Source of the DNA: Komagataeibacter sp. FXV3
GTDB taxonomy: Bacteria; Pseudomonadota; Alphaproteobacteria; Acetobacterales; Acetobacteraceae
Direction of reading: 5' to 3'
NCBI RefSeq assembly: GCF_015155755.1
Contig: NZ_VWPI01000039.1
Coordinates: 1-52,247 of the forward strand
DNA length: 52,247 nucleotides
A program made the position numbers and the translations under genes. The notes under the pieces are model-generated. The model had not been told where the DNA came from and did no database searches. It saw nothing but the letters and a program-made list of their open reading frames with translations. This document shows, one piece after another, positions 25,972 through 48,400 of this stretch (its first letter is position 1; the number at the start of each line of letters is the position of its first letter).

Positions 25972-26241
25972 TTACTGCTGCTGGCCTTCGTGGTCATGAT
26001 CGTGGTCGTGCTCGCCGTGCTCACCACCGTGCTCGCCGTGTTCGCGATCACCATGTTCGCCGTGCTCACGGTCACCGTTTTCGCCGTTCTGGCCGTTTTC
26101 TTCATGGTGCTTGCCATGATGCTTGCCGTGGTGTTCACCGTGGTGCTCGCCGTGGCGGCCCTGTTCGTTGTTGTCTTCAGCGTGGGCGACAACCGGCAGG
26201 GACAGACCAAGGACTGCAGCCAGGAGAAGGGACTTTTTCAT
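25972..26241 (-). CDS. Secreted histidine-rich protein
   Basis: The 89-aa precursor has a clean Sec signal (MKKSLLLAAVLGLSLPVVAHA, cleavage after AHA). The mature 68 residues are almost only His, Glu, Gly, Asp, Asn, with repeats of HGEHHGKHHGKHHEE and REHGEHG types and an HDHDHDH end. That composition suggests periplasmic binding of Ni, Cu or Zn, or simple buffering; no fold is expected. AGGAAA lies 9 bases before ATG 26241. The repeated triplets make the gene liable to slippage, so lengths may vary between strains. Confidence 0.75.
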   Translation of the reverse strand: MKKSLLLAAVLGLSLPVVAHAEDNNEQGRHGEHHGEHHGKHHGKHHEENGQNGENGDREHGEHGDREHGEHGGEHGEHDHDHDHEGQQQ

Positions 26242-26397
26242 GTATTTAATTTCCTACTTTACTAATCGGGTTTTAAAAACCTGCCATTGCCTTATAAAAT
26301 AACAACCAGCGACAAGAAAGCCTGTACCAGTAAATTATTTGTAACAGAATGCATCATACCCGCGGTTACTACGGGATATTATTGCGGATACGATACA

Positions 26398-26559
26398 TCA
26401 TGCCTCCTCATGCACGTAACCGTCATCGGGATGCACATGGGATGCATCCTGCGTGCGGACATAGCCGCGACGGTTTTTCCATGCATGGATCAGGGCTTCG
26501 CGCCATTCTTCATGTGGCTCTTTACGGGGTCTGGGGGTGGAGACGGCTTGCGTATTCAT
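26398..26559 (-). CDS. Small soluble hypothetical protein with strong RBS
   Basis: The 53-aa product begins MNTQAVSTPRPRKEPHEEWR and continues through EALIHAWKNRRGYVRTQDAS to an acidic end. A consensus AGGAGG (26570-26575 on the reverse strand) precedes ATG 26559-26557. It is soluble, Trp/His/Arg-rich, with no recognised domain. The ribosome binding site and balanced composition favour a real gene; the overlapping plus-strand frame is Met/Cys-rich and unlikely. Confidence 0.6.
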   Translation of the reverse strand: MNTQAVSTPRPRKEPHEEWREALIHAWKNRRGYVRTQDASHVHPDDGYVHEEA

Positions 26560-26575
26560 GATCCGGAAACCTCCT

Positions 26576-26907
26576 GATAAGGAGCCAGCACAGGCGCGGG
26601 CAGGAACAACCTAACAAAAACAATGGGCCATGAATGTGATGATTGTATGAATCTCCGATCACCGCTACGCGATCATCATGCTGGTTGAACGGGTGGCATA
26701 CGCGCAATGATTACTGATAAATTAATCCCCCCGATTAAAAAAATCCGTGCATACCTGAATTGCACACGGAAATAATTCCTGTTCCATAAACGATTACCAA
26801 TGAATTCCTGATAACAGGCACTGGTGGTATCTTTTTGTAACAATGCACGCCCTTTCATCTTCCGGGCAATTCTACAATGTTACCACTTTGTAACCCGGAG
26901 AAACATC
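26576..26907. promoter_or_regulatory. AT-rich intergenic region with an inverted repeat
   Basis: No gene is supported. Just before the repeat-protein gene, GTTAC (26879-26883) and GTAAC (26890-26894) form an inverted repeat around CACTTT, and another TTGTAAC lies near 26835. These could be operator or promoter parts for the downstream secreted protein. Confidence 0.3.
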
Positions 26908-27162
26908 ATGAAACGTACACTCATGTTCGTGCTGGCGCTTGGCGCATCGCTGCCGGTCGCCGCACAGGCCCAGTCCTTTTTTGGCAACCATGAAGAACAC
27001 CGCGAAGGCCGTGAAGGCGGCTTTGGCGGTGAGCATCGTGAAGGCCGCGAAGGTGGCTTTGGTAATGAACGCCGTGAAGGTGGTTTTGGCGGCGAACACC
27101 GTGAAGGCCGCGAAGGCGGTTTTGGCGGTGAACACCACGAAGACCACCACGGTCGTCGCTAA
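26908..27162 (+). CDS. Secreted Gly/Glu/Arg/His repeat protein
   Basis: The 84-aa precursor has a Sec signal (MKRTLMFVLALGASLPVAAQ, likely cleaved after AQA) and a mature part made of an imperfect 12-residue repeat, FGGEHREGREGG, occurring three to four times, ending EDHHGRR. It is intrinsically disordered and strongly charged. ATG 26908 follows CCGGAG. With the His-rich protein 670 bases away it forms a pair of small periplasmic low-complexity proteins. Confidence 0.7.
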   Translation: MKRTLMFVLALGASLPVAAQAQSFFGNHEEHREGREGGFGGEHREGREGGFGNERREGGFGGEHREGREGGFGGEHHEDHHGRR

Positions 27163-27260
27163 AACAGCCGTTTCCGTTTGACGGACTGTTCAGGGGAAGG
27201 GCCATGCCGGTCCTTCCCGTCCTGCCGCCCGGCATGTATCCGTGCCGGGCGGCAGGCATG
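27163..27260 (+). other. Three adjacent hairpins after the repeat-protein gene
   Basis: Hairpin A: TCCGT (27173-27177) with ACGGA (27181-27185), extended by AACAG/CTGTT across a bulge. Hairpin B: GGGAAGG with CCTTCCC (about 27194-27218). Hairpin C: CCTGCCGCCCGGCA (27221-27234) with TGCCGGGCGGCAGG (27243-27256), a perfect 14-bp stem with an 8-base loop. No T-tract follows. It may be a 3'-end stabiliser, a processing site or a structured RNA. Confidence 0.4.
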
Positions 27261-27506
27261 AAAGGCGTATCCGACCCGGCCGCCCCGCCATACGGGGATC
27301 CGGTGGGACCGGATGCGCCTTTCGCGCCCACGCAGATGCCGCCAGCACGGCGGACATCGGTAACAACAGGCATGATCGGGACCGCGCCACCGGCGGCCCG
27401 TCATTTAATCGTCGTGGTCCAACACCGGCGTAATCCCGCTGTCCATGGCGGCGACCATCTGCCATGATGGGGAAATTCCGGCCATCGTGGCCTGGTGGAG
27501 ATCATA
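27261..27506. other. Spacer upstream of sugE without a recognised element
   Basis: I see no gene and no guanidine riboswitch: the paired ACGR-loop hairpins of mini-ykkC were looked for and not found. Confidence 0.35.
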
Positions 27507-30115: not shown

Positions 30116-30514
30116 TTACGACTTGCCGCCGTGGCTGTGCTGGCCACCCTTGCGCCCGGCTTCCGCCGCGCGTTCGGGATCATCGGCAAAGTTGCCCGAC
30201 CCGTGCTGCGTCGCCTTGTGCGTGCCGGTGGCATGGGTGCCGCCGGTACGGGTGCTGGCGGATGTCGATTTTTCCGCCGTCTGGCCGCCATGGCTGTGCT
30301 GGCCGCCCTTGCGGCCGGCTTCCGCCGCGCGTTCCGGGTTGTTCGCGAAATTGCCGGAACTGTGCTGCCCACCCTTGTGCCCGGCTTCGGACGCGCGGGC
30401 GGGATCATTGGCAAAGTTGCCGGGATTGTGCGCGGCCCCCCCACCACCACGGCTGTCGGCCGGTGCAAATGCGGGCTGGCTGGTACGTGTGTGCAGGGAG
30501 ATATGATAACTCAT
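30116..30514 (-). CDS. KGG-repeat stress protein (YciG/GsiB-like)
   Basis: The 132-aa hydrophilic protein has three copies of an approximately 21-residue unit with GNFANDPERAAEAG then KGGQHS, the stress-induced KGG motif. Such proteins are disordered, glycine-rich and made under stationary-phase, desiccation or heat stress. ATG 30514 is preferred to GTG 30523 for spacing to AAAGG. A separate linker rich in Ser/Thr/His divides repeats two and three. Confidence 0.82.
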   Translation of the reverse strand: MSYHISLHTRTSQPAFAPADSRGGGGAAHNPGNFANDPARASEAGHKGGQHSSGNFANNPERAAEAGRKGGQHSHGGQTAEKSTSASTRTGGTHATGTHKATQHGSGNFADDPERAAEAGRKGGQHSHGGKS

Positions 30515-30523
30515 GATCTTCAC

Positions 30524-30962
30524 CTTTCCATATCACAGCGGCTACAGAAGGTCCTTGTTTTTCCCCGGCCCCTGCCGGGCCATTGGGGAAGCAACCCCGA
30601 AAATACGCGCTGTGGGAGGTTCAACGGCATATCATCCCGGCGGTTCCGTATTCCATATATAAAATAAATAAGGCGCGGTTTCGCTTCGTTCAGACACAAA
30701 ACAGGTCAGTTTCATAATATAATTAAGACCATGCACTTTATAATTTCCTGTCACACATCACATACGAAGCCACGGACGGGCAGGCAAGCCGCCGTGTTCA
30801 CGCAGCCGCTTCGCTGCATGATGTAAAATACAGTAAATACATTTGTTATATCGCATCGTTACTTACATTGCACATGCGCAACATCATGGACGGCGCGCGA
30901 TGCCATCCGTGCTACACGCCCCGGACCAGACCGGCCCGGCCCCTGCACCCAAGGACCCTTTC
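30524..30962. other. Intergenic, AT-rich in the middle; no gene seen
   Basis: This divergent spacer between the KGG-repeat and alarmone hydrolase genes includes AT-rich runs at about 30650-30740 and 30820-30860 that could hold promoters both ways. A short GCAGC/GCTGC stem lies near 30801-30817. No RNA or protein gene is supported. Confidence 0.4.
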
Positions 30963-31487
30963 ATGACCAGCGACCTGATTGCCCGCGCGGATGCATTTGC
31001 CGAAGCTGCCCATGCCAGCATCGGGCAGACGCGCAAATACAGCGGTGATCCGTATATCATCCATCCCCGCCGTGTCGCGCGCATGGTGGCGCAGACTGGC
31101 GCGCGCGATGCAGTCATCGCCGCCTCCCTGCTGCATGACGTGGTGGAGGACACGCCCGTCACACTGGCGGACATACAGGCCACGTTTGGCGATGACGTGG
31201 CGGCGCTGGTTGAAATGGTGACGGATGTCAGCCGCCCAGGCGATAGCAACCGCAGGCGGCGCAAGGCCATGGACCGTGACCATCTGGCCATGGCATCGGC
31301 CGGGGGCCAGACGATCAAGCTGGCCGACCTGATCGACAATACGGCGTCCATCACGCAGCATGATCCGGGTTTTGCACGGGTCTATATGCGCGAAATGCAG
31401 GAACTGCTGGATGTGCTGACGCGCGGGGAGCGGAACCTGCACCGGCAGGCGGCAACACTGGCCACGCAGTATTTCCAGCGGGGATAG
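30963..31487 (+). CDS. Small alarmone hydrolase (Mesh1-like HD domain)
   Basis: The 174-aa protein is an HD-domain (p)ppGpp hydrolase without synthetase, TGS or ACT domains. Motifs: HASIGQTRKYSGDPYIIHPR (residues 18-37) with His34, LLHDVVEDTPVT with the His58-Asp59 pair, and KLADLIDN with Asp122 and Asn126, the Mn-binding and catalytic set of RelA/SpoT hydrolases and Mesh1. ATG 30963 follows AAGGA at 8 bases. It would remove ppGpp or related nucleotides. It lies near stress genes but is transcribed away from them. Confidence 0.8.
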   Translation: MTSDLIARADAFAEAAHASIGQTRKYSGDPYIIHPRRVARMVAQTGARDAVIAASLLHDVVEDTPVTLADIQATFGDDVAALVEMVTDVSRPGDSNRRRRKAMDRDHLAMASAGGQTIKLADLIDNTASITQHDPGFARVYMREMQELLDVLTRGERNLHRQAATLATQYFQRG

Positions 31488-31493
31488 AAGGAC

Positions 31494-31544
31494 AGAAGTT
31501 GTTGGTGAAGCTTTTTTTCACAAAGGCGACACCCCAGAACTTCT
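31494..31544 (+). repeat. Dispersed element, shortened copy
   Basis: Outer arms AGAAGTT (31494-31500) and AACTTCT (31538-31544) are a perfect inverted repeat. GGTGAAGCTTTTTTTCA and AAAGGCGACACC remain inside. It sits 7 bases after the hydrolase stop. Confidence 0.75.
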
Positions 31545-31585
31545 GTTTTCAGACAGCCTTCATAAATGCCATGCGGGCAGACCGG

Positions 31586-33778
31586 TCATGGGCGCTCTGC
31601 TTCGTAATATTCAATAAAAAACACCCGCATCTGTTCGTGGTGTTCCTGTATCATGGCTTCCATTCGTTCGTTGATGCCGACGCTATTATCGATTTCCATA
31701 TTTTTTGTAATAGCAAATAGCCAGGCCAGTTTCAGTGAATCATATCTGCCCGTTTTTCTGCCTTTTTCAAAAAACTCGTTTCTCTTGTCGGTAAAATTCT
31801 GGTTGCCGTACGCACTGTTCTCACCCGGATTCAGCAGGGCAAGATTACCGAAACAATGCAGGAGCTTCGGATTCAGGCGAGGCAGATTGCGCGGCGTCTG
31901 CGGATAGACGTGTTCAACCGAATTCCTGGACACGATCCGGTAGCGTCTGAACCTGTCTTTCATATCCCTGTCCGACAGGTTGGGAACCATTCCGTCGCGC
32001 GCCTTTTTCCACAATATATATTCCAGCTTCTGGAACCAGTAATGCGTGATATCGGGATATTTATTCTGCATCAGTGCAGCAATGACGTTCTCCGCCGCTT
32101 CATAAATGGGCGTGCCGGAACCGGACAGGTCAGCGGATAGCAGGTCGAAACTGGCAGCCTTCTGGGTATGGATGCCATTTTCCTGCTTGTCGGACGCAAC
32201 GCATGACAGCCGGTTATCCAGCCTTTCCAGCAGGCCCAGCACATGCGTATCTGTCGGGAACCAGTCTGCCACCCACCGATCATCTTTCCACTGGCCCTTT
32301 GCCAGTCGGCCCAGAAACGGCGTCAGCCAGTACTGCGCGCTGTGGTCACCCGTAAAATACCGCACGGTCTGCAACTGCTCCAGCGCGCCAGCCCAGCCAT
32401 CTGCCGTGGGGGTGGTGCGGGACAGGCGTTTTTTACCGGTTTTTGTATCCCTGATCTGCGCACGGAACATGATGGACTGGCCCGATTGCGGGTCCGTAAC
32501 CCGTTTCATGACCCACTGGTCAAACTGGTGGCGCACGGTCCACAGGCATTCGATAAACTGGCGTGCCTTTTCAGCGCCCATCTCCGCCGAGGTCGTAGTA
32601 CATTCCTTCAGAAAACCAGCGAAACATTCATTCAGACGATCCGGGGTGATGCTGGGAATATCACCATTATCCTCATCCTTATCTTTATCCGGTTTCTGCC
32701 CCTGCTGATGGCGGTAAATACGCAGCGTATGCAGCAGCAGTTGGGGAAAGGTCAGGATGGAGGTGGCATGCGTCAGGGCATTCTCATCTTCGCCATCGTC
32801 CTTTTCAGGCTCCCGGTCCTGCGTGCCCGATAAGCCTCCCCGCGCCACGATGTCCGACAGGGTCATGGCGGCTGTCTGGTCGGGGCTGCATCCCTCAAGA
32901 TAGAATTTTTTATGATCAAATGTTTTCAGCTCGTCATAAGAACAGTTTTCCCACTTGGCGTGGGGGAACACAGCGCGCAGGTTGCGTTCAAAAAAGCCGT
33001 TCATGTTTTCACAGGCCTGCCAGATGGCGTCATAATCCATCCGACGGCGGGCCGGAATCAGTTCCAGCAGGCGGGCCTTGATGATATCGGATGCTTCCAA
33101 CTGCACGCCGCTGGTATTCAGCGCAGTAAACAGGCGATTGAAATCGGTGCCCTGTGGCACGATGTTATTGACCCAGCTTACCTTGCTGAACAGATAGTTT
33201 CCGAATTCGCACAGTTCAGGACCTTTTTTGCCAGCCAGAAAGTCCTTCGCGGTCTTCAGGCCACCCGACAGGTCCTTTACGTACGCATCCCCTGAACCGG
33301 CTTCGACCTCCCCGGCCAGCCAGGCACGAAACAGGTCGCGTACCTGTTCACGAATGGCGAAATGCAGGCGGGGTTCATCATGCATTGTTGGATCGTAAAG
33401 AAATTTCTTCAATGCGCCATGCAGCAGCGTCAACCCCTTGTCTGGTTTTTGTGACTCAAGCACGCGGACAAATTCTTTTGACTCAATTACGCGGACAAAC
33501 GCCAGGAAAATCAGCATCAGCGTTGTCAGGCGCTGCTGCCCGTCAATCAGTTCGTAACAGGGTGGTTCGGCATCCGTTGCAGCCGTATTTGTTGTAATCA
33601 GCGTGCCGATGAAATAATGCGGCCGGGCCGCCTTCATGGCATTTTCTATGTCCTGCAGGAATTTTTCCACATCTTCGGGCTGCCAGACATACGGACGCTG
33701 ATAGCTGGGTATGGCCAGACGCGCCTTGCATATCCACAGTCTCCGCGCCGTCAGTACTTCGGTCTTTACCATTTCCAT
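31586..33778 (-). CDS. DUF262 + DUF1524 (GmrSD-like) nuclease-type protein
   Basis: The 730-aa protein has an N-terminal DUF262 domain: SYQRPYVWQPEDVEKFLQDI (from residue 25) and ELIDGQQRLTTLMLIFLAF with DGQQR at 79-83, which in GmrS-type proteins binds and hydrolyses NTP. The segment LNTSGVQLEASDIIKARLLE follows, also typical. The C-terminus carries DUF1524: NSVEHVYPQ (His623), CFGNLALLNPGENSAYGNQN and then FTDKRNEFF, an HNH/His-Me-finger nuclease signature. The ATG lies one base after the stop of the upstream DUF262 gene. Likely modification-dependent DNA cleavage or anti-phage function (inference). Confidence 0.82.
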   Translation of the reverse strand: MEMVKTEVLTARRLWICKARLAIPSYQRPYVWQPEDVEKFLQDIENAMKAARPHYFIGTLITTNTAATDAEPPCYELIDGQQRLTTLMLIFLAFVRVIESKEFVRVLESQKPDKGLTLLHGALKKFLYDPTMHDEPRLHFAIREQVRDLFRAWLAGEVEAGSGDAYVKDLSGGLKTAKDFLAGKKGPELCEFGNYLFSKVSWVNNIVPQGTDFNRLFTALNTSGVQLEASDIIKARLLELIPARRRMDYDAIWQACENMNGFFERNLRAVFPHAKWENCSYDELKTFDHKKFYLEGCSPDQTAAMTLSDIVARGGLSGTQDREPEKDDGEDENALTHATSILTFPQLLLHTLRIYRHQQGQKPDKDKDEDNGDIPSITPDRLNECFAGFLKECTTTSAEMGAEKARQFIECLWTVRHQFDQWVMKRVTDPQSGQSIMFRAQIRDTKTGKKRLSRTTPTADGWAGALEQLQTVRYFTGDHSAQYWLTPFLGRLAKGQWKDDRWVADWFPTDTHVLGLLERLDNRLSCVASDKQENGIHTQKAASFDLLSADLSGSGTPIYEAAENVIAALMQNKYPDITHYWFQKLEYILWKKARDGMVPNLSDRDMKDRFRRYRIVSRNSVEHVYPQTPRNLPRLNPKLLHCFGNLALLNPGENSAYGNQNFTDKRNEFFEKGRKTGRYDSLKLAWLFAITKNMEIDNSVGINERMEAMIQEHHEQMRVFFIEYYEAERP

Positions 33779-33779
33779 G

Positions 33780-35219
33780 TCAGGCGGCCCGTCCGGAAGC
33801 TGTCAATTTCCCAAAATGCTCTATCAGGTCAGTATCAAACTCGTTTTTTAACTGGTCTTTCTTAGTACATGACTGGTCCATCACGCCATACACGCTGCGG
33901 ACATACCGCGCCCGGATGCCACCCCCGTCCAACCCGTCCGGATCAATGTCATAGGTATAGGCACGCAGGTATTGCATAAGCTGCGCATGGTTGAAGCTGC
34001 ACGCGATATAGTCCAGAAGCTGGTGATCCAGACAGAACTTCTGCACGCCCTGTTCAAATACACGCAGCTTCGTCAGGCGCAGGCTGAAGACAAAGCGCAG
34101 CAGCCACAGCCGCGCTTCCGCCAGGTTGCTTTGCCCGAACCGGCTGGCGTAAAGCAGGATTGCAGTTTCGTACAGCGCACGCAGATACCGGCTTTCCGCG
34201 GCATCCATGATCGTCGCCTCAAGCTGTTCATGGCCATTTTTCACCATGGCGCCGCCATCGGGGTTTTCGCGCGGAAACAGGTCATTATGCAGTGTGCAGA
34301 AATACAGCAGGTAATTAATGGTATTGACCCCGCTGTTCAGGGGCTGGCGCATGGCATAGCCACATTCCGGCATAAGCTGTTGCCACAACCCGAAGGGCTG
34401 GTTCTGCCATACGCTCAGCCGGTACGCCGGGTCCTGTTCCGATGGCTGCGTATCATCCCCGAATTCGGCAATGATTTCATTGCGCAGTTCCGACCAGTAG
34501 AACTTTCGGACATGCAGATGGGTCCAGAACCGCCCGGCAATCAGCAGCCTGACCACATCATCCAGCGACGTGCCCGTCTTTTCCCATAACCGCGCGTAAT
34601 CATCCCGCTGCCCCGACGCAATGGCGCGCAGGTGATAGGCCTTGATGATATCCGTCCCCGACAGCCGCCGCCCGCCGGTGTTTATCGTCTGGAAAAAACG
34701 CCATGCGTCATCTTCCGACCGGGTCACGATCAGGGTGACGTTGATACTGCGCAGATCAAGTTTCGGGCGACTGGCCTGCTTTATCGCTTGCACAATGCCA
34801 AAATTGCGCCGGATCCGTTCATGGCTGGCCGGTGCGCGATAGGTCAGGTCCAGTATGGGTTGCAGACCCCACGCCTGGCACAGGATCGCCATGGTGGTCA
34901 GGCGCTGCTGGCCATCAATGATATCCAGCACCACTTCGCCCTGATCATTTTCATGCTGGTGCAGGACAATACTGCCAAGATAGAAGGCAACGGGCGGGGC
35001 CAGCCTGAAATAGGCCTCCAGATCCCCCACCAGTTGCCTGACCTGCTTTTCCCCCCAGCAATAGGGGCGCTGATAGACGGGCAGGTTCAGTTTTCCCTGC
35101 AGTTTTTTCACCCGTCCCTTGAAAAGCTCATCAAGGGTGGCCGATATGGGGTCAATACCAAAAATCAGCCTGCTACTTTCCACACCATTATCAGGTGCGG
35201 ACTCCGTATTATTTAACAT
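33780..35219 (-). CDS. DUF262 protein without nuclease domain, partner of the 730-aa protein
   Basis: The 479-aa protein has the DUF262 motifs LPVYQRPYCWGEKQVRQLVG (residues 46-65), VLDIIDGQQRLTTMAILCQA with DGQQR at 102-106, and FFQTINTGGRRLSGTDIIKA (about 175-194). No HNH or DUF1524 signature is visible in the C-terminal half, which is helical and of unknown fold. It is the first gene of a tight two-gene operon (one-base gap). AT-rich sequence upstream (35220-35275) with TATAAAAT probably holds the promoter. It could supply the NTPase or sensing half of the system. Confidence 0.8.
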   Translation of the reverse strand: MLNNTESAPDNGVESSRLIFGIDPISATLDELFKGRVKKLQGKLNLPVYQRPYCWGEKQVRQLVGDLEAYFRLAPPVAFYLGSIVLHQHENDQGEVVLDIIDGQQRLTTMAILCQAWGLQPILDLTYRAPASHERIRRNFGIVQAIKQASRPKLDLRSINVTLIVTRSEDDAWRFFQTINTGGRRLSGTDIIKAYHLRAIASGQRDDYARLWEKTGTSLDDVVRLLIAGRFWTHLHVRKFYWSELRNEIIAEFGDDTQPSEQDPAYRLSVWQNQPFGLWQQLMPECGYAMRQPLNSGVNTINYLLYFCTLHNDLFPRENPDGGAMVKNGHEQLEATIMDAAESRYLRALYETAILLYASRFGQSNLAEARLWLLRFVFSLRLTKLRVFEQGVQKFCLDHQLLDYIACSFNHAQLMQYLRAYTYDIDPDGLDGGGIRARYVRSVYGVMDQSCTKKDQLKNEFDTDLIEHFGKLTASGRAA

Positions 35220-35473
35220 ATATAAAATATATCCGGTAAAATCATGAATTCATTCTATCATGATAAAAAAAGCATGACCTGAATGACAAGCCATACCCTG
35301 ACACGCAACGCCCGCTGGCTCATGGTCCCGTCAGGAAACCGCAAAATGGGCAGGGCAGGGACTGCACCGGGGCATCGTGCAGATTATAGAAAAGCTTCAA
35401 AAAAAAGACGGCACCAGCAGGACAGCAGACGGGCAACCCGCATGAAGGGCCGCCCGCCTGCCGGTTTTGGGGG
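35220..35473. other. Intergenic, with promoter-like AT-rich DNA and a decayed repeat copy
   Basis: AT-rich sequence lies immediately upstream of the DUF262 operon and a degraded dispersed-element fragment at 35389-35417. The plus-strand frame here encodes a Lys/Arg-rich non-protein-like sequence and is not annotated. Confidence 0.4.
35389..35417 (+). repeat. Decayed fragment of the dispersed element
   Basis: GAAAAGCTTC, an A-run, then GACGGCACC keeps the order of the family's inner sequence, without clear outer arms. Confidence 0.35.
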
Positions 35474-35806
35474 TTACTGATTTTTCAGCGCGTCCGCTTC
35501 TTCCTGCCGCGTGGCAAAGGGGACTTCCTGCCTGTCATCCAGCTCATCCATGCTGCCGCCGGAATTGCCGAGGTTTTCTTCCAGGAACGCCTCCTCGACC
35601 GGCTGGCCGTTCGCGTCCAGCGGCACGGGGGAGTCCACGGGGATCTGTCCCGCATCGGGGTTGCTTTCCATCCCGATCAGTTCCGACGCATTTTCCCTGT
35701 AGGCATCCGGCCCGCAGCCCGGCCTGCCATCGGCTTCCCACAGTTCCTTTGCCTTCGCGGTGATGCGGGCCTCGGTCTGCGGGGTGGTTTCCAGTGGGTT
35801 GACCAT
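35474..35806 (-). CDS. DUF2934 domain protein
   Basis: The 110-aa acidic protein has a DUF2934 motif near its N-terminus (ARITAKAKELWEADGRPGCG, then YRENASELIGME), followed by a Pro/Asp/Glu-rich disordered tail. DUF2934 proteins are small, common in soil and acetic bacteria, and of unknown function. ATG 35806 is chosen because AAGGA is properly spaced for it; ATG 35812 would sit too close. A rightward oxidase operon follows. Confidence 0.78.
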   Translation of the reverse strand: MVNPLETTPQTEARITAKAKELWEADGRPGCGPDAYRENASELIGMESNPDAGQIPVDSPVPLDANGQPVEEAFLEENLGNSGGSMDELDDRQEVPFATRQEEADALKNQ

Positions 35807-35869: not shown

Positions 35870-36221
35870 AGCGTAATCCCGTGCCCCCCGTCACCCGCAA
35901 CAGGGGGCATGGCAGTCGCGTTCCCATGCTGCAGCTACCATGCGCATCGGGAATACCCCTGTAACATACATGGCAAAATCCGGCCCGATATCAATGGTGG
36001 CAGGCCTGTTCCATACATGTGCCTTCTGACAGTCCACTGTTTGATAAGCCATGGTTATCATGACATGCGCAGAAGGTCTTGGACGCGCAACTTTTTACTG
36101 ATCTAGCACTGTGCCCGACGCGTTGTGGTTCATACCGCGACATTCCGTGTGACCGACAGGCCCGACCCGGGCCTGCCCTTGCACGGGCGTATCCCTGTTT
36201 TCAGGTTTGGGAAAGTTATCG
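35870..36221. other. Leader region of the cio operon; no gene seen
   Basis: 352 bases without a supported frame. A moderately AT-rich block (about 36010-36110) could be the cioA promoter; I do not see a clear Fnr, Anr or other operator palindrome. Confidence 0.4.
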
Positions 36222-37655
36222 ATGCACACCGTCCATGATCCCGCGCTATTGCTGGCGCGCTTCCAGTTCGCCTTTACCGTAGGCGTGCATATCATCTTCC
36301 CGGCGTTTTCAATCGGTCTGGCAGCGTACCTTGCCGTGCTGGAAGGGCTGTGGCTGCGAACGGGAAGGCCGGTCTTCCTTGATCTGTACCGATACTGGAT
36401 CAAGGTGTTTTCGATCGTATTTGGCATGGGCGTGGTGTCGGGACTGGTCATGTCGTACGAATTCGGCACCAACTGGTCGGTCTTTTCACGCAAGGCCGGG
36501 CCGATTACCGGCGTGCTGCTGTCCTATGAGGTCATGACCGCGTTTTTCCTGGAGGCAGGCTTTCTTGGCGTCATGCTGTTCGGCATGAACCGGGTCGGGC
36601 GCGGCCTGCATTTCGCCGCGACGTGCTGTGTCTCTGTCGGCACCCTGATTTCCATGACATGGATCCTGTCATCCAATTCATGGATGCAGACCCCGCGCGG
36701 CTACACCATCGACCCCGCCACGGGGCGGTTCATGCCTGCTGACTGGCTGGCGATCATCTTCAATCCGTCCTTTCCCTTCCGGCTGGTGCATATGGGGCTG
36801 GCGGCCTTCCTGTCGGTGGCGTTCATCGTGGGGGCCACGGGGGCATGGCATATGCTCAAGGCCCGCAGGCGGGGGCAGGTGGCCAGTGAACCCGTGCGGG
36901 TCATGTTTTCCATGGCGATGTGGATGGCCGCCATCGTCGCCCCCATCCAGATCATGGCGGGCGACGCGCACGGGCTGAACACGCTGAAATACCAGCCCGC
37001 CAAGATTGCGGCGATGGAAGGAGACTGGGTATCGGAAGACCACGCGCCCGAACTGCTGTTCGGCATTCCCAACATGAAGACCGAACATACGGATTATGCC
37101 GTCAGGCTGCCGCTGGCCGGGTCGCTGATCCTGACCCACAGCGTAAACGGCAGGGTACCGGGAATGAAGGACTTCCCCCGTGACCAGCGGCCGCCGTCCT
37201 ATGTCATTTTCTTCACTTTCCGCATCATGGTCGCCCTTGGCATGCTGATGGTGGCAGTGGGCATGTGGTCGCTGTGGCTGCGGCACCGGGGCAGGCTGTA
37301 TGATACGCCGCTTTTCCACCGCGTCGCCCTGTGCATGGCGCCTGCGGGTTTCCTGGCGCTGCTGTGCGGCTGGATCACGACGGAGGTCGGCCGCCAGCCC
37401 TGGACGGTCTATGGCCTGCTGCGCACATCCGACAGCGTGGCGCCCAATGCCCTGTCGTCCATGGCGGTGTCCATGACGGCGTTCGTGGTGGTGTACGTGC
37501 TGGTGTTCGGGTCCGGGATCGGGATGCTGGTGCGCCTGCTGGGCCACACGCCGCATACGGGTGAACACGGCACCAGCCCCGACCATGCCCCCGACATACT
37601 GGCCGCGCGCAGCCACCCGGCGGTCGTTGACCCCACCCATGGCGAAGGAGCCTGA
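36222..37655 (+). CDS. cioA: Cytochrome bd-type (cyanide-insensitive) ubiquinol oxidase subunit I
   Basis: The 477-aa polytopic protein binds hemes b and d and oxidises ubiquinol, reducing O2 to water. Features: RFQFAFTVGVHIIFPAFSIG with His23 matching E. coli CydA His19, FPFRLVHMGLAAFLSVAF with a second candidate heme ligand, and GWITTEVGRQPWTVYGLLRT near the end. The Q-loop is of the short CIO type. ATG 36222 is chosen over TTG 36207 because GGGAAAG is placed for it. Acetic acid bacteria use such oxidases beside bo3 under acid and low oxygen. Confidence 0.92.
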   Translation: MHTVHDPALLLARFQFAFTVGVHIIFPAFSIGLAAYLAVLEGLWLRTGRPVFLDLYRYWIKVFSIVFGMGVVSGLVMSYEFGTNWSVFSRKAGPITGVLLSYEVMTAFFLEAGFLGVMLFGMNRVGRGLHFAATCCVSVGTLISMTWILSSNSWMQTPRGYTIDPATGRFMPADWLAIIFNPSFPFRLVHMGLAAFLSVAFIVGATGAWHMLKARRRGQVASEPVRVMFSMAMWMAAIVAPIQIMAGDAHGLNTLKYQPAKIAAMEGDWVSEDHAPELLFGIPNMKTEHTDYAVRLPLAGSLILTHSVNGRVPGMKDFPRDQRPPSYVIFFTFRIMVALGMLMVAVGMWSLWLRHRGRLYDTPLFHRVALCMAPAGFLALLCGWITTEVGRQPWTVYGLLRTSDSVAPNALSSMAVSMTAFVVVYVLVFGSGIGMLVRLLGHTPHTGEHGTSPDHAPDILAARSHPAVVDPTHGEGA

Positions 37656-37658
37656 GAC

Positions 37659-38678
37659 ATGATGGACGTTTCCTACTGGCTGCCGGTCATATGGGCGGTG
37701 ATCCTTGTGGCCGCGATTTCGATATACGTCATCCTTGACGGGTTCGACCTTGGCATCGGCATGCTGTTCGCGCTGGAACGCGACCGGGGGTGCCGCGATG
37801 TGATGATCAACACCATCGCCCCCGTATGGGACGGGAACGAGACGTGGATGGTACTAGGGGGCGCGGTGCTGTACGGCGTGTTCCCCGGGGCCTATGCCAC
37901 GTTGCTGCCGGCGTTCTACATGCCGATCGTGGTGATGCTGCTGGCGCTGATCTTTCGCGGCGTGGCGTTTGAATTCCGTATCCTGACCCGCGATACCCCG
38001 CGTGAACGGCTGTGGGAGGGCGGGTTCATGGCCGGTTCCGCCATTGCCGCATTCTGCCAGGGGGTGATCCTGGGCGGCGTGGTGCAGGGGGTCCGGGTTG
38101 TTGACGGCGCGTTTGCCGGCGGCCCGCTGGACTGGCTGACGCCGTTCAGCATCCTGTGCGGGGTGGCGGTCATGTGCGGCTATGCCCTGCTGGGGGCGAC
38201 GTGGCTGGTATGGCGCACAACGGGCAGGCTGGAAGCGGCGTGCCGCCGGTGGGCGGGGTGGCTGGCCATCGGGCTGTTCATGGGCATTGTCGCGGTCAGC
38301 GCATGGACGCCGCTGCTGCATGCGCCCTACCTGCGGCGCTGGACCGACTGGCCCAACATCGCGCTTGTGGCCCCGGTGCCGGTGCTGGTGGTCATGCTGG
38401 GGATTGTGCTGGCGCGCTCACTGCGCCGTGGGCAGACGCGCGTGCCGTTTGCCTGCGCGCTGGGCTGGTTCGGGCTGTGCCTGTCGGGACTGGGGATTAC
38501 GATCTGGCCCTATGCCGTGCCGCCGGGGCTGACATTGTGGGACGTGTCATCACCGCCCTCCAGCCAGTTTTTCCAGTTGGTCGGCACGGCAATCATGATT
38601 CCCATCATCCTGACCTACACCATCCATTCGTATCGCGTATTTCGCGGAAAGGTGACCGAGAGCGATGGCTATCACTGA
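37659..38678 (+). CDS. cioB: Cytochrome bd-type ubiquinol oxidase subunit II
   Basis: The 339-aa membrane subunit has the CydB/CioB pattern: VILDGFDLGIGMLFALERDR near the N-terminus, NTIAPVWDGNETWMVLGGAV, and FRGVAFEFR. It pairs with CioA to form the oxidase. ATG 37659 lies 3 bases after the cioA stop; ATG 37662 is one codon downstream. The stop overlaps the small DUF2474 gene by 14 bases. Confidence 0.92.
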   Translation: MMDVSYWLPVIWAVILVAAISIYVILDGFDLGIGMLFALERDRGCRDVMINTIAPVWDGNETWMVLGGAVLYGVFPGAYATLLPAFYMPIVVMLLALIFRGVAFEFRILTRDTPRERLWEGGFMAGSAIAAFCQGVILGGVVQGVRVVDGAFAGGPLDWLTPFSILCGVAVMCGYALLGATWLVWRTTGRLEAACRRWAGWLAIGLFMGIVAVSAWTPLLHAPYLRRWTDWPNIALVAPVPVLVVMLGIVLARSLRRGQTRVPFACALGWFGLCLSGLGITIWPYAVPPGLTLWDVSSPPSSQFFQLVGTAIMIPIILTYTIHSYRVFRGKVTESDGYH

Positions 38679-43711: not shown

Positions 43712-44839
43712 TCAGCGCACCGTGGATTCCGCTGCCGCGGCAGGCAAGACGTGGGGCATGGCCCGGGCCACTAGTAGACTGTTCACGATCCGCCGTGCCG
43801 CATCCATATGCATGGGCAGGTCGGCACGGCGGATGGGCACGCGCCGCAATACCGGACTCAATGCCGCCAGCCGGTCCCATGCCATGCCGCCAAACCGGGC
43901 ACGCGACATATGGGCCACGCAGCCTGCGGGCAGGCGCAGCAGGGCGGCCAGATCCGCAACCGCATCATGCCACGGGCCGGTGGCGGGCAGCAGGGCGCGC
44001 AGCCGGCGCAACGTCGCGCGCGCCTGCGCGCGGCGCAGGCTGGCCCGTGGCGGTTCAAGGCTGTCATCCAGCATTTCATCCTGCCGCACCATGCGCCGCG
44101 CCATGGTGTCCGCCATGCCACCACAGGCCCGCCCCGCCGTACGGCCCGACACCCACACCGTGACATCCGGCGCGTGGCGGATGGCGGCATCCACGTGCCG
44201 CAGGGCGCGCACGAAACCCCGGTCCTCGCCTAACGGCACGGCGGGAACGCCACCCGCGCGCCGCCAGGCGGCCACCGTTACCGCAATGCTGGCGCCGGAA
44301 TGTTCCGTATGGCGCGGCCACGGATCATGCAGGTCGGGATCAACCAGGTCATGGATACGGTCCAGCAGCGTGGCATAGGCGGTTTCCATGCGGTCATCTT
44401 CATGCAGGTGGGCGGGGATCAGCCGCGCTTCCTCCGGGTCGATCAGGGCGCGGCCACAGACCACCTCGGCCCCCGCGTCAAGGGCGGCCAGGGTATGGAC
44501 CAGCCAGTCGGGCGCAACACGGCCATCGGCATCGGTTGTCAGCACGATGCCATCCGGCCCTGCAAGGGCCGCCGCAACCTGCATGGCCGCCCGCCGGGCC
44601 GTGCCCGCATGGGCGATGGGCGGGGGATAGGTCCGCGGCACCACCACCACGCCAAAGGGCAGGGACGGGGCCAGCGCACGCACCACGCCGCACGTGTCAT
44701 CCGTGCAGTTGTTGAGCAGCAGGACAACATGGGACAGGCAGGCCCCGTGCTGTGCGGCAAGGGCGCGCAGGCAGGGGTCGATCCGCTGTGCCTCGTTACG
44801 TACCGGGATCGCCACGACAGGGGGGCGGGCAGGCGGCAT
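43712..44839 (-). CDS. Glycosyltransferase family 2 protein
   Basis: The 375-aa protein has the GT-A fold: VVAIPVRNEAQRIDPCLRAL (residues 8-27), LLLNNCTDDTCGVV, the metal-binding DADG in VLTTDADGRVAPDWLVH, and GEDRGFVRALRHVDAAI with the ED acid/base. No TM helices follow, so it is cytosolic or peripheral. It faces the ACAD-PIG-L-NodS operon. Together they form a sugar-transfer, deacetylation and methylation set. The start is ATG 44839. Confidence 0.83.
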   Translation of the reverse strand: MPPARPPVVAIPVRNEAQRIDPCLRALAAQHGACLSHVVLLLNNCTDDTCGVVRALAPSLPFGVVVVPRTYPPPIAHAGTARRAAMQVAAALAGPDGIVLTTDADGRVAPDWLVHTLAALDAGAEVVCGRALIDPEEARLIPAHLHEDDRMETAYATLLDRIHDLVDPDLHDPWPRHTEHSGASIAVTVAAWRRAGGVPAVPLGEDRGFVRALRHVDAAIRHAPDVTVWVSGRTAGRACGGMADTMARRMVRQDEMLDDSLEPPRASLRRAQARATLRRLRALLPATGPWHDAVADLAALLRLPAGCVAHMSRARFGGMAWDRLAALSPVLRRVPIRRADLPMHMDAARRIVNSLLVARAMPHVLPAAAAESTVR

Positions 44840-44950
44840 GGGTCACCTGTTGGAAGGGGAAATGGTAAACGCGGCGTGGACCGGACGGGTTGCACAAAGC
44901 GGACGAACCAGCAGGAGGGCATCTGGAACACTGCATTGATAAATAGATAT

Positions 44951-45000
44951 AAAAGTTTTTGGGTCCCGCTTTTTTTCAGGAAGCTTCACCAAAAACTTCT
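44951..45000 (-). repeat. Dispersed element, shortened, reverse orientation
   Basis: On the reverse strand AGAAGTTTTTGGTGAAGC, then TTCC and AAAAAAAGCGGGACCC, then AAAAACTTTT. Outer arms are intact, the inner part shortened. Confidence 0.75.
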
Positions 45001-45490
45001 TGATGGGTTTCAGGACGTTTTCTTTCCTGTGCCCGCCGTTACATGACGCAGGCATGAACCGGATAATTTTTATTTTAAAATCCCCGTAGGGCAGGAACCC
45101 ACCCGTATCGGGCGATAGTTCCCCGATGCCGAATTTTTTATTTATGAAATTACAAAATCAATAAATTATACTTCATAAATTATCGGAAATAATTACGAAC
45201 ATTTCCGGTAATGAAGATTATTTTAAATCTTATCTGTTCATACTTTGTAAAAAAAACCTGTATCTGTCGATTCAGGCAGATGCCGCATGACCCCATGCCG
45301 GCCCGCCCGTTACCGATCATGACGGAGCATCGTCCCATGTCCACCACCATGACCCGTAAACCCTAGGGGCCTGTCCGCCGCCGCGCGGGGCGCGGCCAAT
45401 CCATCCATACAGTAAAGACCGCATGCCAATACTGTGGCGCGTGCCCACGGTGCTGCGCGGTTCTTCGTGCTACAGGGAATTATCCATCCC
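45001..45490 (+). promoter_or_regulatory. AT-rich leader of the RND operon with inverted repeats
   Basis: No supported gene. TTTATGAA (45141-45148) and TTCATAAA (45172-45179) form a long-spaced inverted repeat; CGGAAAT (45184-45190) and ATTTCCG (45201-45207) another. Such palindromes in an AT-rich block before an efflux operon look like regulator sites, but no regulator gene is next to it. A 15-codon frame at 45319-45366 has no evidence for use. Confidence 0.4.
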
Positions 45491-48400
45491 ATGAATGCCA
45501 TCGTAGTGACCGCACTGCGTCGGCCCTATACCTTTGTGGTGCTGTCGATCCTTATCGTGGTCTTTGGCATCATGTCGGTATTGCGCACGCCGACAGACGT
45601 GTTCCCCAATATCAGGATACCGGTCGTATCCGTTGTCTGGACCTATGGCGGCATGCTGCCAGAGGAATTCGCCGGCCGTATCATCTACAATTACGAACTG
45701 ATGGTGACCTCGACCGTCGAGGGCATCGAACATATGGAAAGCAGTTCGTATTACGGGCGCGGTATCGTCAACATATACTTCCAGCCCGGCACCGATATCG
45801 GCAAGGCGGAAGCGGAAGTCACCGCCATATCGCAGACGGTCATAAAACAGCTGCCCGAAAACATCCCGTCGCCCATGGTGATGAGCCTTGATGCATCATC
45901 CGTGCCGGTACTCACGCTACAGGTCACGTCTGACAAACAGACACCATCCGACCTGTTCAAGCTGGCGATGATCCGCGTGCGCCCGCTGCTGGTCACCGTG
46001 CCGGGTGCGGTGGTGCCGCAGGCCTATGGCGGGATGGACAGCTTTGTCATGGTCGCGCTCAACCAGCAGCAGCTTCAGGCGCACCACCTGTCGGCCATGG
46101 ACGTGCAGAACGCCCTGCGCGGGCAGAATATCGTGCTGCCGGCGGGGGACCAGAAAATCTCGGCCACGGACTGGATGGTGCAGACCAACGCAACGCCCCG
46201 ATCCATGAAGGAACTGGGCGATATCCCGGTCAAGCGCGTAGGCAACGCCGTGATCTATGTCCATGACGTGGCCGAGGTCTATCGCGGCGGCCACCCGCAG
46301 ACCAACCTTGTGCTGGTGAAGGGCCAGCAGGGGGTGGAAATCGTCGTGATGAAAAGCGGCGATGCCTCGACGCTGGATGTCGTGGCGGGGGCCAAGGCGC
46401 TGCTGCCACGTATCCAGAAACTGCTGCCGCCAGATGTGAAGGTCAGCATACTGGGCGATGCCTCGATATTCGTGAAGGATTCCATTTTCGACGTCGTGCG
46501 CGAAATGCTGACGGCCGCCGCCCTGACCGGCATGGTGGTGCTTCTGTTCCTGGGGTCGTGGCGGCCTACGGTCATCATCGCGACATCCATCCCGCTGGCC
46601 ATCCTGTGCGCCATCATCGGCCTGCACTGGGCGGGGCAGACCATCAATGTCATGACGCTGGGCGGTCTTGCGCTGGCGGTGGGCATTCTGGTGGATGACG
46701 CCACGGTGATGATCGAGAACATCGACGCGCATCTGGAAATGGGCAAGGCGCTGGAACCCGCGATCATTGACGCGGCCAACCAGATTGTCATTCCCACCTT
46801 TGTCGCCACCACCTGCATCTGCATTGTCTGGCTGCCGCTGTTTGGCCTGAGCGGGGTCGCGGGCTGGCTGTTCATGCCCATGGCCGAAGCCATCATCTTC
46901 GCCATGATCGCGTCCTTCATCCTGTCGCGCACGCTGGTGCCGACCATGGCCAAATACCTGCTGGCCGGTCACAGCGTGGCGGGACACGGGGATTCCCACC
47001 ATTGCGAGCCGCAGGTGCATAACCTGCAATACCCCAAACGGCTGCCCGAACGCTTCCAGCAGGCGTTTGAACGCGGGTTCAACGCCTTCCGCGAAAACTA
47101 TGCGGGCGTGCTGGAACGCGCGATTGCGGGGCGCAGGCGGTTCGTGGGTGTGTTCCTTGGCGTCTCGGTCTGTTCGCTGGGGCTGTACCTGATCGCGGGG
47201 CGGGATTTCTTCCCCGAAACCAAATCGGGCACGATCCAGATGCACATGCGCGCGCCGCTGGGCACCCGGATCGAGGTGGCAGGGCGCGAGGCATCGCTGG
47301 TGGAAGACCGGATCAACCAGTTGTTCCCCGGCAGGGTGGACAGCATGATCGAAAACTGCGGCCTGCCCGAAGGTGCCCATAACCAGGCCTTCATTCCCAC
47401 GCCGACCATCGGCACGCAGGACTGTGACATCACCATTGCGCTGAAGGATGAGGAAACGCCGGTATGGGATGACCGCACCATCCTGCGCCACGACCTGTCG
47501 GCACGGTTTCCCGGCACGGTGTTCACCTTCCAGCCTGCGGACCTGACCGCCAAGATCCTGAACTTCGGCTCCCCCGCGCCCATCGACATCCAGATTTCGG
47601 GGCCGGACCTGCGCGACAATTACGACTATGCTCGCCTGCTGGTGAACCGCCTGCGCGCAGTGCCCGGCGCGGCTGATGTCGTAATCCAGCAGACCATGAA
47701 AACGCCGACCCTGTTCGTGCAGGGCAACCGCACCTTCGGTCAGGCCACCGGCATGACGGAAGCCGACCTGGCCAATAACGAACTCATGACCCTGTCGGGC
47801 AGCCAGACGGTGGACCCGCAATACTGGCTGGACCCGGCCACGGGCATCACATTCCCGCTGAATGTGTATGTGTCACAGGACCAGCTGACGCATTTCAACA
47901 ACCTCATGACCATTCCGGTGGACAAGGGTGATGGCGACCCGCAGGGGCGGCACATGCAGCTGCTGGGCGGTATCAGCAATGTCAACGCCACGGGCACGCC
48001 GGGGCAGGTCTCGCACTTCAATTCCATGCCGGAAGTCGACATCTATGTCTCCGCCGAGGGCGCGGACCTTGGGCAGGTGACAACCGGCGTGCAGCACGTG
48101 CTGGACCAGACGCGGGGCAACGTGCCGTCCACCGCCGCCGTGGTGGTGCGCGGACAGACCGAAACCATGCGCCATGCCTATGTCGAACTGGTGTTCGGGC
48201 TGGTGGTGTCGGTGCTGCTGATCTACCTGCTGATCGTGGTCAATTTCCAGTCATGGCTGGACCCGTTCATCATCATTACCGCATTGCCCGGCGCATTGGC
48301 GGGCATCGCATGGGCGCTGTTCCTGACGCACACCCGCCTGTCGGTCCCGGCACTTACGGGGGCGATCATGTGCATGGGCACGGCGACCGCCAATTCCATC

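Follow-up and report, generated by a model that had tools for sequence, protein, structure and literature searches.

A two-gene DUF262 cassette in Komagataeibacter sp. FXV3 is probably a two-protein type IV restriction system of the TgvAB/GmrSD-ECOR17 kind

Why would an operon encode two proteins with the same NTPase-type DUF262 domain when only one of them carries a nuclease? This question is raised by two adjacent genes, hereafter A and B, in a 52,247-bp stretch of Komagataeibacter sp. FXV3 (contig NZ_VWPI01000039.1, positions 1 to 52,247, the whole of which is referred to as the window). The published two-DUF262 systems raise the related question of why the nuclease subunit cannot act alone. 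Our analysis indicates, with a probability of about 0.8, that the two genes encode a two-protein type IV restriction system, dependent on DNA modification, of the TgvAB/GmrSD-ECOR17 kind. A first-pass annotation made from the sequence had suggested a heteromeric GmrSD-like defence system with two DUF262 proteins, which is supported here and appears to be the best reading. The idea is right but already published, and the window pair is a further member of that kind: TgvAB was described in Vibrio cholerae in 2024 (PMC11411939), GrwAB in V. cholerae VSP-II WASA in 2025 (PMC12137116) and GmrSD-ECOR17 (GmrS1/GmrSD2) in Escherichia coli in 2025 (PMC12373910), with TgvAB and GrwAB compared in a review (PMC12409362).

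The two genes lie on the minus strand, A upstream and B downstream with 1 base between them, as the first-pass annotation had described, and contain the following features.

33780..35219 (-): gene A, 479 aa, TgvA/GmrS1-like, DUF262 + DUF7834
34632..35108 (-): DUF262 (GmrSD_N) domain of A, residues 38-196 (PF03235, 3.3e-27)
34902..34916 (-): DGQQR nucleotide-binding motif of A, residues 102-106 (sequence motif, alignment)
33948..34607 (-): DUF7834 (PF25202), C-terminal domain of A, residues 205-424 (Pfam, 2.4e-27), predicted helical
31586..33778 (-): gene B, 730 aa, TgvB/GmrSD2-like, DUF262 + middle region + DUF1524/His-Me nuclease
33065..33718 (-): DUF262 (GmrSD_N) domain of B, residues 21-238 (Pfam, 7.2e-30)
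33530..33544 (-): DGQQR motif of B, residues 79-83 (sequence motif, alignment)
31739..32053 (-): DUF1524 (GmrSD_C) nuclease domain of B, residues 576-680 (Pfam, 3.3e-13)
31817..31915 (-): His-Me finger core of B, E622-H623...N645...N654 (alignment)

All Pfam matches of A and B exceeded the curated cut-offs, and Pfam found no nuclease domain in A; NCBIfam at 0.001 gave zero matches for either protein. The best 25 matches in PADLOC-DB (2023) were to Orf5, HEC-06 and SspE models, with one to mREase_IV (for A). Alignment placed Y49QR51, D102GQQR106 and F176xxxN180 in A, and Y26QR28, D79GQQR83, F217xxxN221, E622H623, N645, N654 and N659 in B. The QR, DGQQR and FxxxN motifs are common to both proteins, which bears out the first-pass claim of an NTPase-type motif in each partner, and GmrSD_C with EH...N...N occurs in B only, as it had also noted for the DUF1524/HNH-like C-terminus of the 730-aa protein. 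We then examined conservation in a chosen set of 34 aligned pairs (the window, two Komagataeibacter species, two further congeners, 13 other genomes, five viral contigs and 11 plasmid loci, eight of the last reached A-first and three B-first). In A, QR, DGQQR and the F and N of FxxxN were kept in 34/34 rows; in B, DGQQR, the F and N, EH, N645 and N654 were likewise kept in 34/34 and QR in 33/34, the single row without QR being a sequence short at its 5' end, and N659 was replaced by Asp in 1 of 26 rows (L170). Since the motifs are kept across these pairs, their presence in A and B is not due to chance. Foldseek matched the AlphaFold2 models of both proteins to DndI and SspE (E < 0.001), at low TM-scores by query length (0.26-0.30 for A, 0.25-0.44 for B) and with a weaker match to BrxU; outside its DUF262 domain the A model is predicted to be mostly helical.

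We further asked how constantly the two genes occur together. K. swingsii (84%) and K. nataicola (54%) have full-length relatives of A, as do plasmids, further genomes and viral-type contigs, and B lay directly downstream on the same strand in 31/31 opened full-length A loci with downstream room, so the ordered pair recurs far beyond the window strain. These loci include the window; 30 were reached A-first and one (L181, a viral contig) B-first, and two more contigs stop at A. Junctions in 26 measured pairs ranged from a 65-base overlap to a 3-base gap, overlaps being reckoned from the earliest start codon available, with the exception of L163, where 161 bases separate A from a B without its 5' part. 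Searches starting from B gave the same picture. Among 246 genomes of one gammaproteobacterial family, A was present in 11/11 with B above 390 bits (partial B matches in G1116, 140 bits, and G962:C121, 111 bits, were left out), and among 19 genomes of the genus, including the window's own, full-length B occurred in six with an A gene upstream in 6/6, intact in five. Weaker matches in G1181 (87 bits; a lone ORF with DUF262), G1182 (77 bits; the first gene of a different, GrwAB-like doublet) and on contig C44 of G1175 (98 bits) were left out of the genus count. In G1175 itself (L231, 4584-8663), an IS3-like insertion splits A while B stays open, giving a natural A-minus, B-plus state. On plasmids, A lay upstream of B in 8/8 B-first records opened, of 15 (L036, L038, L042 and L234-L238, of which L236 and L238 are outside the 34-row alignment); at one of these loci ISAba1 sits between the genes. 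The 479-aa gene is thus no stray duplicate missing beside B in relatives, a possibility the first-pass annotation had considered and which these B-first counts contradict.

The system is sparse across genomes and constant in make-up. Of 385 genomes of the same class, the window's alone gave an A match above 100 bits, and DUF7834 was found in 4/398 genomes sampled from the phylum, own genome counted. Any match to A was obtained in 928 plasmid records (854 of them Klebsiella), eight of which were opened. In IMG/VR scans, an A of this family occurred on seven contigs, adjoined by B in five and ending at A in the other two; carriage on phage-like contigs thus happens and is rare in these scans. 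A phage-borne origin was considered and rejected, P0002 having one weak match in 50,697 phage records.

We next compared the histories of the two proteins. In a DUF262 tree of 89 domains (31 A, 31 B and 27 others, the last compared by their domains only; a quick search with SH-aLRT support only), all A domains formed one branch (SH-aLRT 96) and all B domains another (SH-aLRT 99), with the 27 other proteins outside both. The DUF262 domains of A and B are alike (hhalign probability 99.9%), whereas the C-terminal domain of A and the C-terminal part of B showed no profile similarity (hhalign probability 0.2-0.3%), which rules out the view of A as B minus its nuclease. Separate trees of A and B shared their main groups, including a clade of the window, three other Komagataeibacter pairs, L036 and L165-L169 that was set against most other sequences with support of 100/100 in the A tree and 100/99 in the B tree; within it, one weakly supported fork differed between the trees. 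Distances among A and among B were closely matched, Mantel r being 0.97 over the 31 pairs and 0.94 once these had been thinned to 14 at 50% identity; in either set, 0/9999 permutations were as high. Both genes are under purifying selection (dN/dS 0.43 for A and 0.34 for B between the window and L034; 0.20 and 0.26 between L035 and L176). The separate branches, matching distances and invariant NTPase motifs in both proteins make A look like a genuine subunit, and the survey suggests an old doublet whose composition has stayed the same. A third DUF262 protein of the same genome (652 aa; G000:C42:378-1073, L055 357-2315) is distant from A and B in the tree.

How such a pair might work can be drawn from its published relatives. 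In TgvAB, GrwAB and GmrSD-ECOR17, both genes are reported to be required and to act against phages with modified DNA (PMC11411939, PMC12137116, PMC12373910), and in the first two, mutating either DUF262 motif or the nuclease ends defence (PMC11411939, PMC12137116). In our model for the window, A (DUF262 + DUF7834) and B (DUF262 + DUF1524) are made from one operon and would assemble into a complex, in which the DUF262 domains would bind NTP, hydrolyse it and detect modified bases of incoming DNA, the reading of the modification possibly falling to A rather than B. NTP turnover in both subunits would license the His-Me nuclease of B to cut modified DNA, unmodified host DNA being spared, and A would be an obligate non-nuclease partner; the system may be active in the window organism. 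A more far-reaching version, which we consider doubtful, holds that A-B is an obligate 'two-key' enzyme fixed before two great clades split, with DUF7834 reading the mark and B firing only on NTP turnover in both DUF262 domains; in acetic acid bacteria, this branch of the system would then read a mark other than glucosyl-hydroxymethylcytosine, carried by phages of vinegar bacteria not yet described.

Given that B holds the whole single-chain architecture and has SspE and DndI as its best structural matches, we also considered whether it could be a self-sufficient GmrSD/BrxU/SspE-like enzyme, with A as an accessory that counters phage inhibitors (e.g., T4 internal proteins) or tunes toxicity; inhibitor bypass is named as a possibility by the TgvAB authors (PMC11411939). 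However, full-length B without an upstream A gene was not seen in the opened B-first loci (one A being broken by an insertion sequence), and B beside an A gene in every one of them means that the locus is not a single-gene GmrSD/BrxU/SspE system. In the published work, TgvB alone and GmrSD2 alone gave no protection and GrwAB needed both genes, and DGQQR mutants of the non-nuclease partner were dead in TgvAB and GrwAB; the NTPase motif of A is also invariant over the 34 rows. This alternative is therefore unlikely. A toxin-antitoxin-like or abortive pair, in which A would restrain a toxic nuclease B until infection, appears very unlikely. Over-expressing both GmrSD-ECOR17 genes was toxic to E. 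coli (PMC12373910), but that toxicity came with the two genes induced together, either gene over-expressed alone being reported only as non-protective, and the sections consulted describe no easing of B toxicity by A (PMC12373910). Moreover, A of the published relatives is described as needed for activity, and the TgvAB authors conclude that their system likely acts directly on phages (PMC11411939). A recent tandem duplication in the window strain, with A as a copy decaying after nuclease loss, would account for the shared DUF262 domain and is scarcely credible, since the 31 A domains all sit on one branch and the 31 B domains all on another, A does not group with its own B, the C-terminal domains are unalike and dN/dS is well below 1.

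The pair occupies a small cassette with the following parts.

31517..35389 (no strand): inserted cassette, 3,873 bp, holding A, B and short ends; no counterpart at the G1171 site
31498..31516 (+): core of a dispersed repeat, GTTGTTGGTGAAGCTTTTT, at the left junction; the genome has about 217 copies
35390..35398 (+): second palindrome half AAAAGCTTC at the right junction (flank comparison)

The cassette has a GC content of 54.0%, compared with 64.3% for the window. In the near relative G1171, both flanks (right 94% identical, left 89.6-90.8%) adjoin and the palindrome GAAGCTTTTTGCAAAAAGCTTC is unbroken, forming an empty site, and in the window one palindrome half ends at 31516 and the other begins at 35390. 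The accessory insertion proposed in the first-pass annotation is supported by this site. Its repeat copies on both sides held for the left, where the repeat core ends at 31516, and did not hold for the right, where only the half palindrome (35390-35398) is present. With up to 2 mismatches allowed, the repeat (core GTTTTTGGTGAAGCTTTTT) occurs 217 times in the genome, 112 forward and 105 reverse, six of them in the window (4984, 31498, 41027, 43605, 44978 and 51523), and the reversed control pattern had 0 copies. The empty-site picture is not perfectly clean, as about 390 bp of the adjoining HD gene (window 30890-31280) are absent from G1171 as well. In G1180 the A-B pair has the neighbours that it has in the window, and identity is 90.6% from the 5' part of B through A into the right flank, but the left junction differs in that the left repeat and the region of the HD gene are missing (window 30749-31545). 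Loss in G1171 is therefore no less likely than separate gains; the HD-domain gene, part-missing in the one and missing at the site in the other, also indicates that this flank is itself variable (window 30749-31545). With the system placed in cellulose- and vinegar-producing bacteria, a cassette in one species and none in a near relative offers a natural test pair. Elsewhere, G1171 has a different, divergent A-B pair (L177, 3053-13387) with FRG-domain, SMC/AAA-like and Fic-family genes nearby.

On either side, the window pair is neighboured by the HD-domain gene and by a DUF2934 gene of small size. Scanning the window with Rfam and for tRNAs gave zero matches, and in 31300-35600 promoter-like sites numbered 3 against 3.4 expected (standard deviation (sd) 1.8) and terminator-like sites 6 against 4.2 (sd 2.3). 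A cydA/cydB-like oxidase pair adjoins the cassette (36207-38678), and several congeners have similar DNA at two or more sites. Two more low-GC troughs lie outside the cassette (26001-27500 and 44501-46000; 50.5-56.6% versus 64%), and a KGG stress-repeat protein of three units (30116-30523) is the source of direct repeats at 30119-30446.

Several observations bear on assigning the pair to the TgvAB/GmrSD-ECOR17 kind, some for it and some against. Kinship to the characterised proteins was judged through stand-ins chosen by residue numbers, L166 for TgvAB and L234 for GmrSD-ECOR17. In favour, L166 has the gene order hsdM-hsdS-A-B-hsdR and, in B, residues H571 and N602, which are those published for TgvAB/TgvB, and it sits in the window clade (100/100 for A, 100/99 for B). 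Against it, L166, the likely characterised relative nearest to the window, is only 32-34% (A) and 36% (B) identical to it; the lysine of the L166 HsdR motif is at 174 instead of the published 172, so L166 is related to the published system without being that system; and a single match at 571 may be chance in a set of about 30 B proteins with catalytic His positions from 505 to 623. TgvAB differs from the window pair in its embedding, from which it takes its name, the window pair not being within a type I restriction-modification (RM) operon, and no defence genes were recognised by Pfam or NCBIfam among 21 other window open reading frames (those of the first 16 kb being outside the scan). The AlphaFold2 models reached moderate mean pLDDT values of 69.4 (A, from 10 sequences) and 67.7 (B, from 13), and the Mantel agreement speaks for joint inheritance and not for contact, because common descent alone can yield it. 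On the other side, a published survey counted 1,341 tgvAB pairs and 79 five-gene operons (PMC11411939), and type I RM embedding is therefore not required for TgvAB.

Finally, we compared the pair with known systems. DUF262 genes were earlier found to be enriched beside GmrSD genes (Machnicka et al. 2015; PMC4619093), and the matches listed in our literature search held none linking DUF262 or GmrSD with Komagataeibacter or acetic acid bacteria. Classical heterodimeric GmrS + GmrD (DUF262-only + DUF1524-only) was rejected, B carrying both domains. The single-chain enzymes BrxU, SspE, DndI and Eco94GmrSD have the same domain order as B, with Foldseek and HMM matches to DndI and SspE and weakly to BrxU; in contrast, each is one protein with no A partner, and B is set apart in the DUF262 tree from the 27 other proteins sampled. 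GrwAB likewise combines two DUF262 proteins, one with DUF1524. However, its nuclease residues in GrwA (H431/N521/N530) place the Asn 90 and 99 positions past the His, as against 22 and 31 in window B, and GrwB has an extended, different C-terminus, compared with the 479-aa A with DUF7834; this catalytic spacing rules out GrwAB membership and makes GrwAB a separate branch. A second two-DUF262 doublet with the nuclease-type gene first, GrwAB-like by description, was seen in the Komagataeibacter congener G1182 (L233, 2401-6572, minus strand) and on viral contigs L144 (5989-10321) and L194 (3915-7815). Its first gene (604, 690 and 587 aa, respectively) has DUF262 and a sub-threshold DUF1524, and its second (826, 757 and 721 aa) encodes a long DUF262 protein, with DGQQR in both. 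GmrSD-ECOR17 is, like the window pair, a two-gene doublet, and its stand-in L234, a homologue from E. coli, carries E582/H583, which are the positions mutated in the ECOR17 GmrSD2; L234 belongs to the other large clade and is 22% (A) and 25% (B) identical to the window pair. TgvAB comes from V. cholerae and the window pair from an acetic acid bacterium, yet the two are alike in their adjacent genes, in an A with DUF262 and no nuclease beside a B with DUF262 and DUF1524, and in having QR, DGQQR and FxxxN in both proteins and H...N...N in B.

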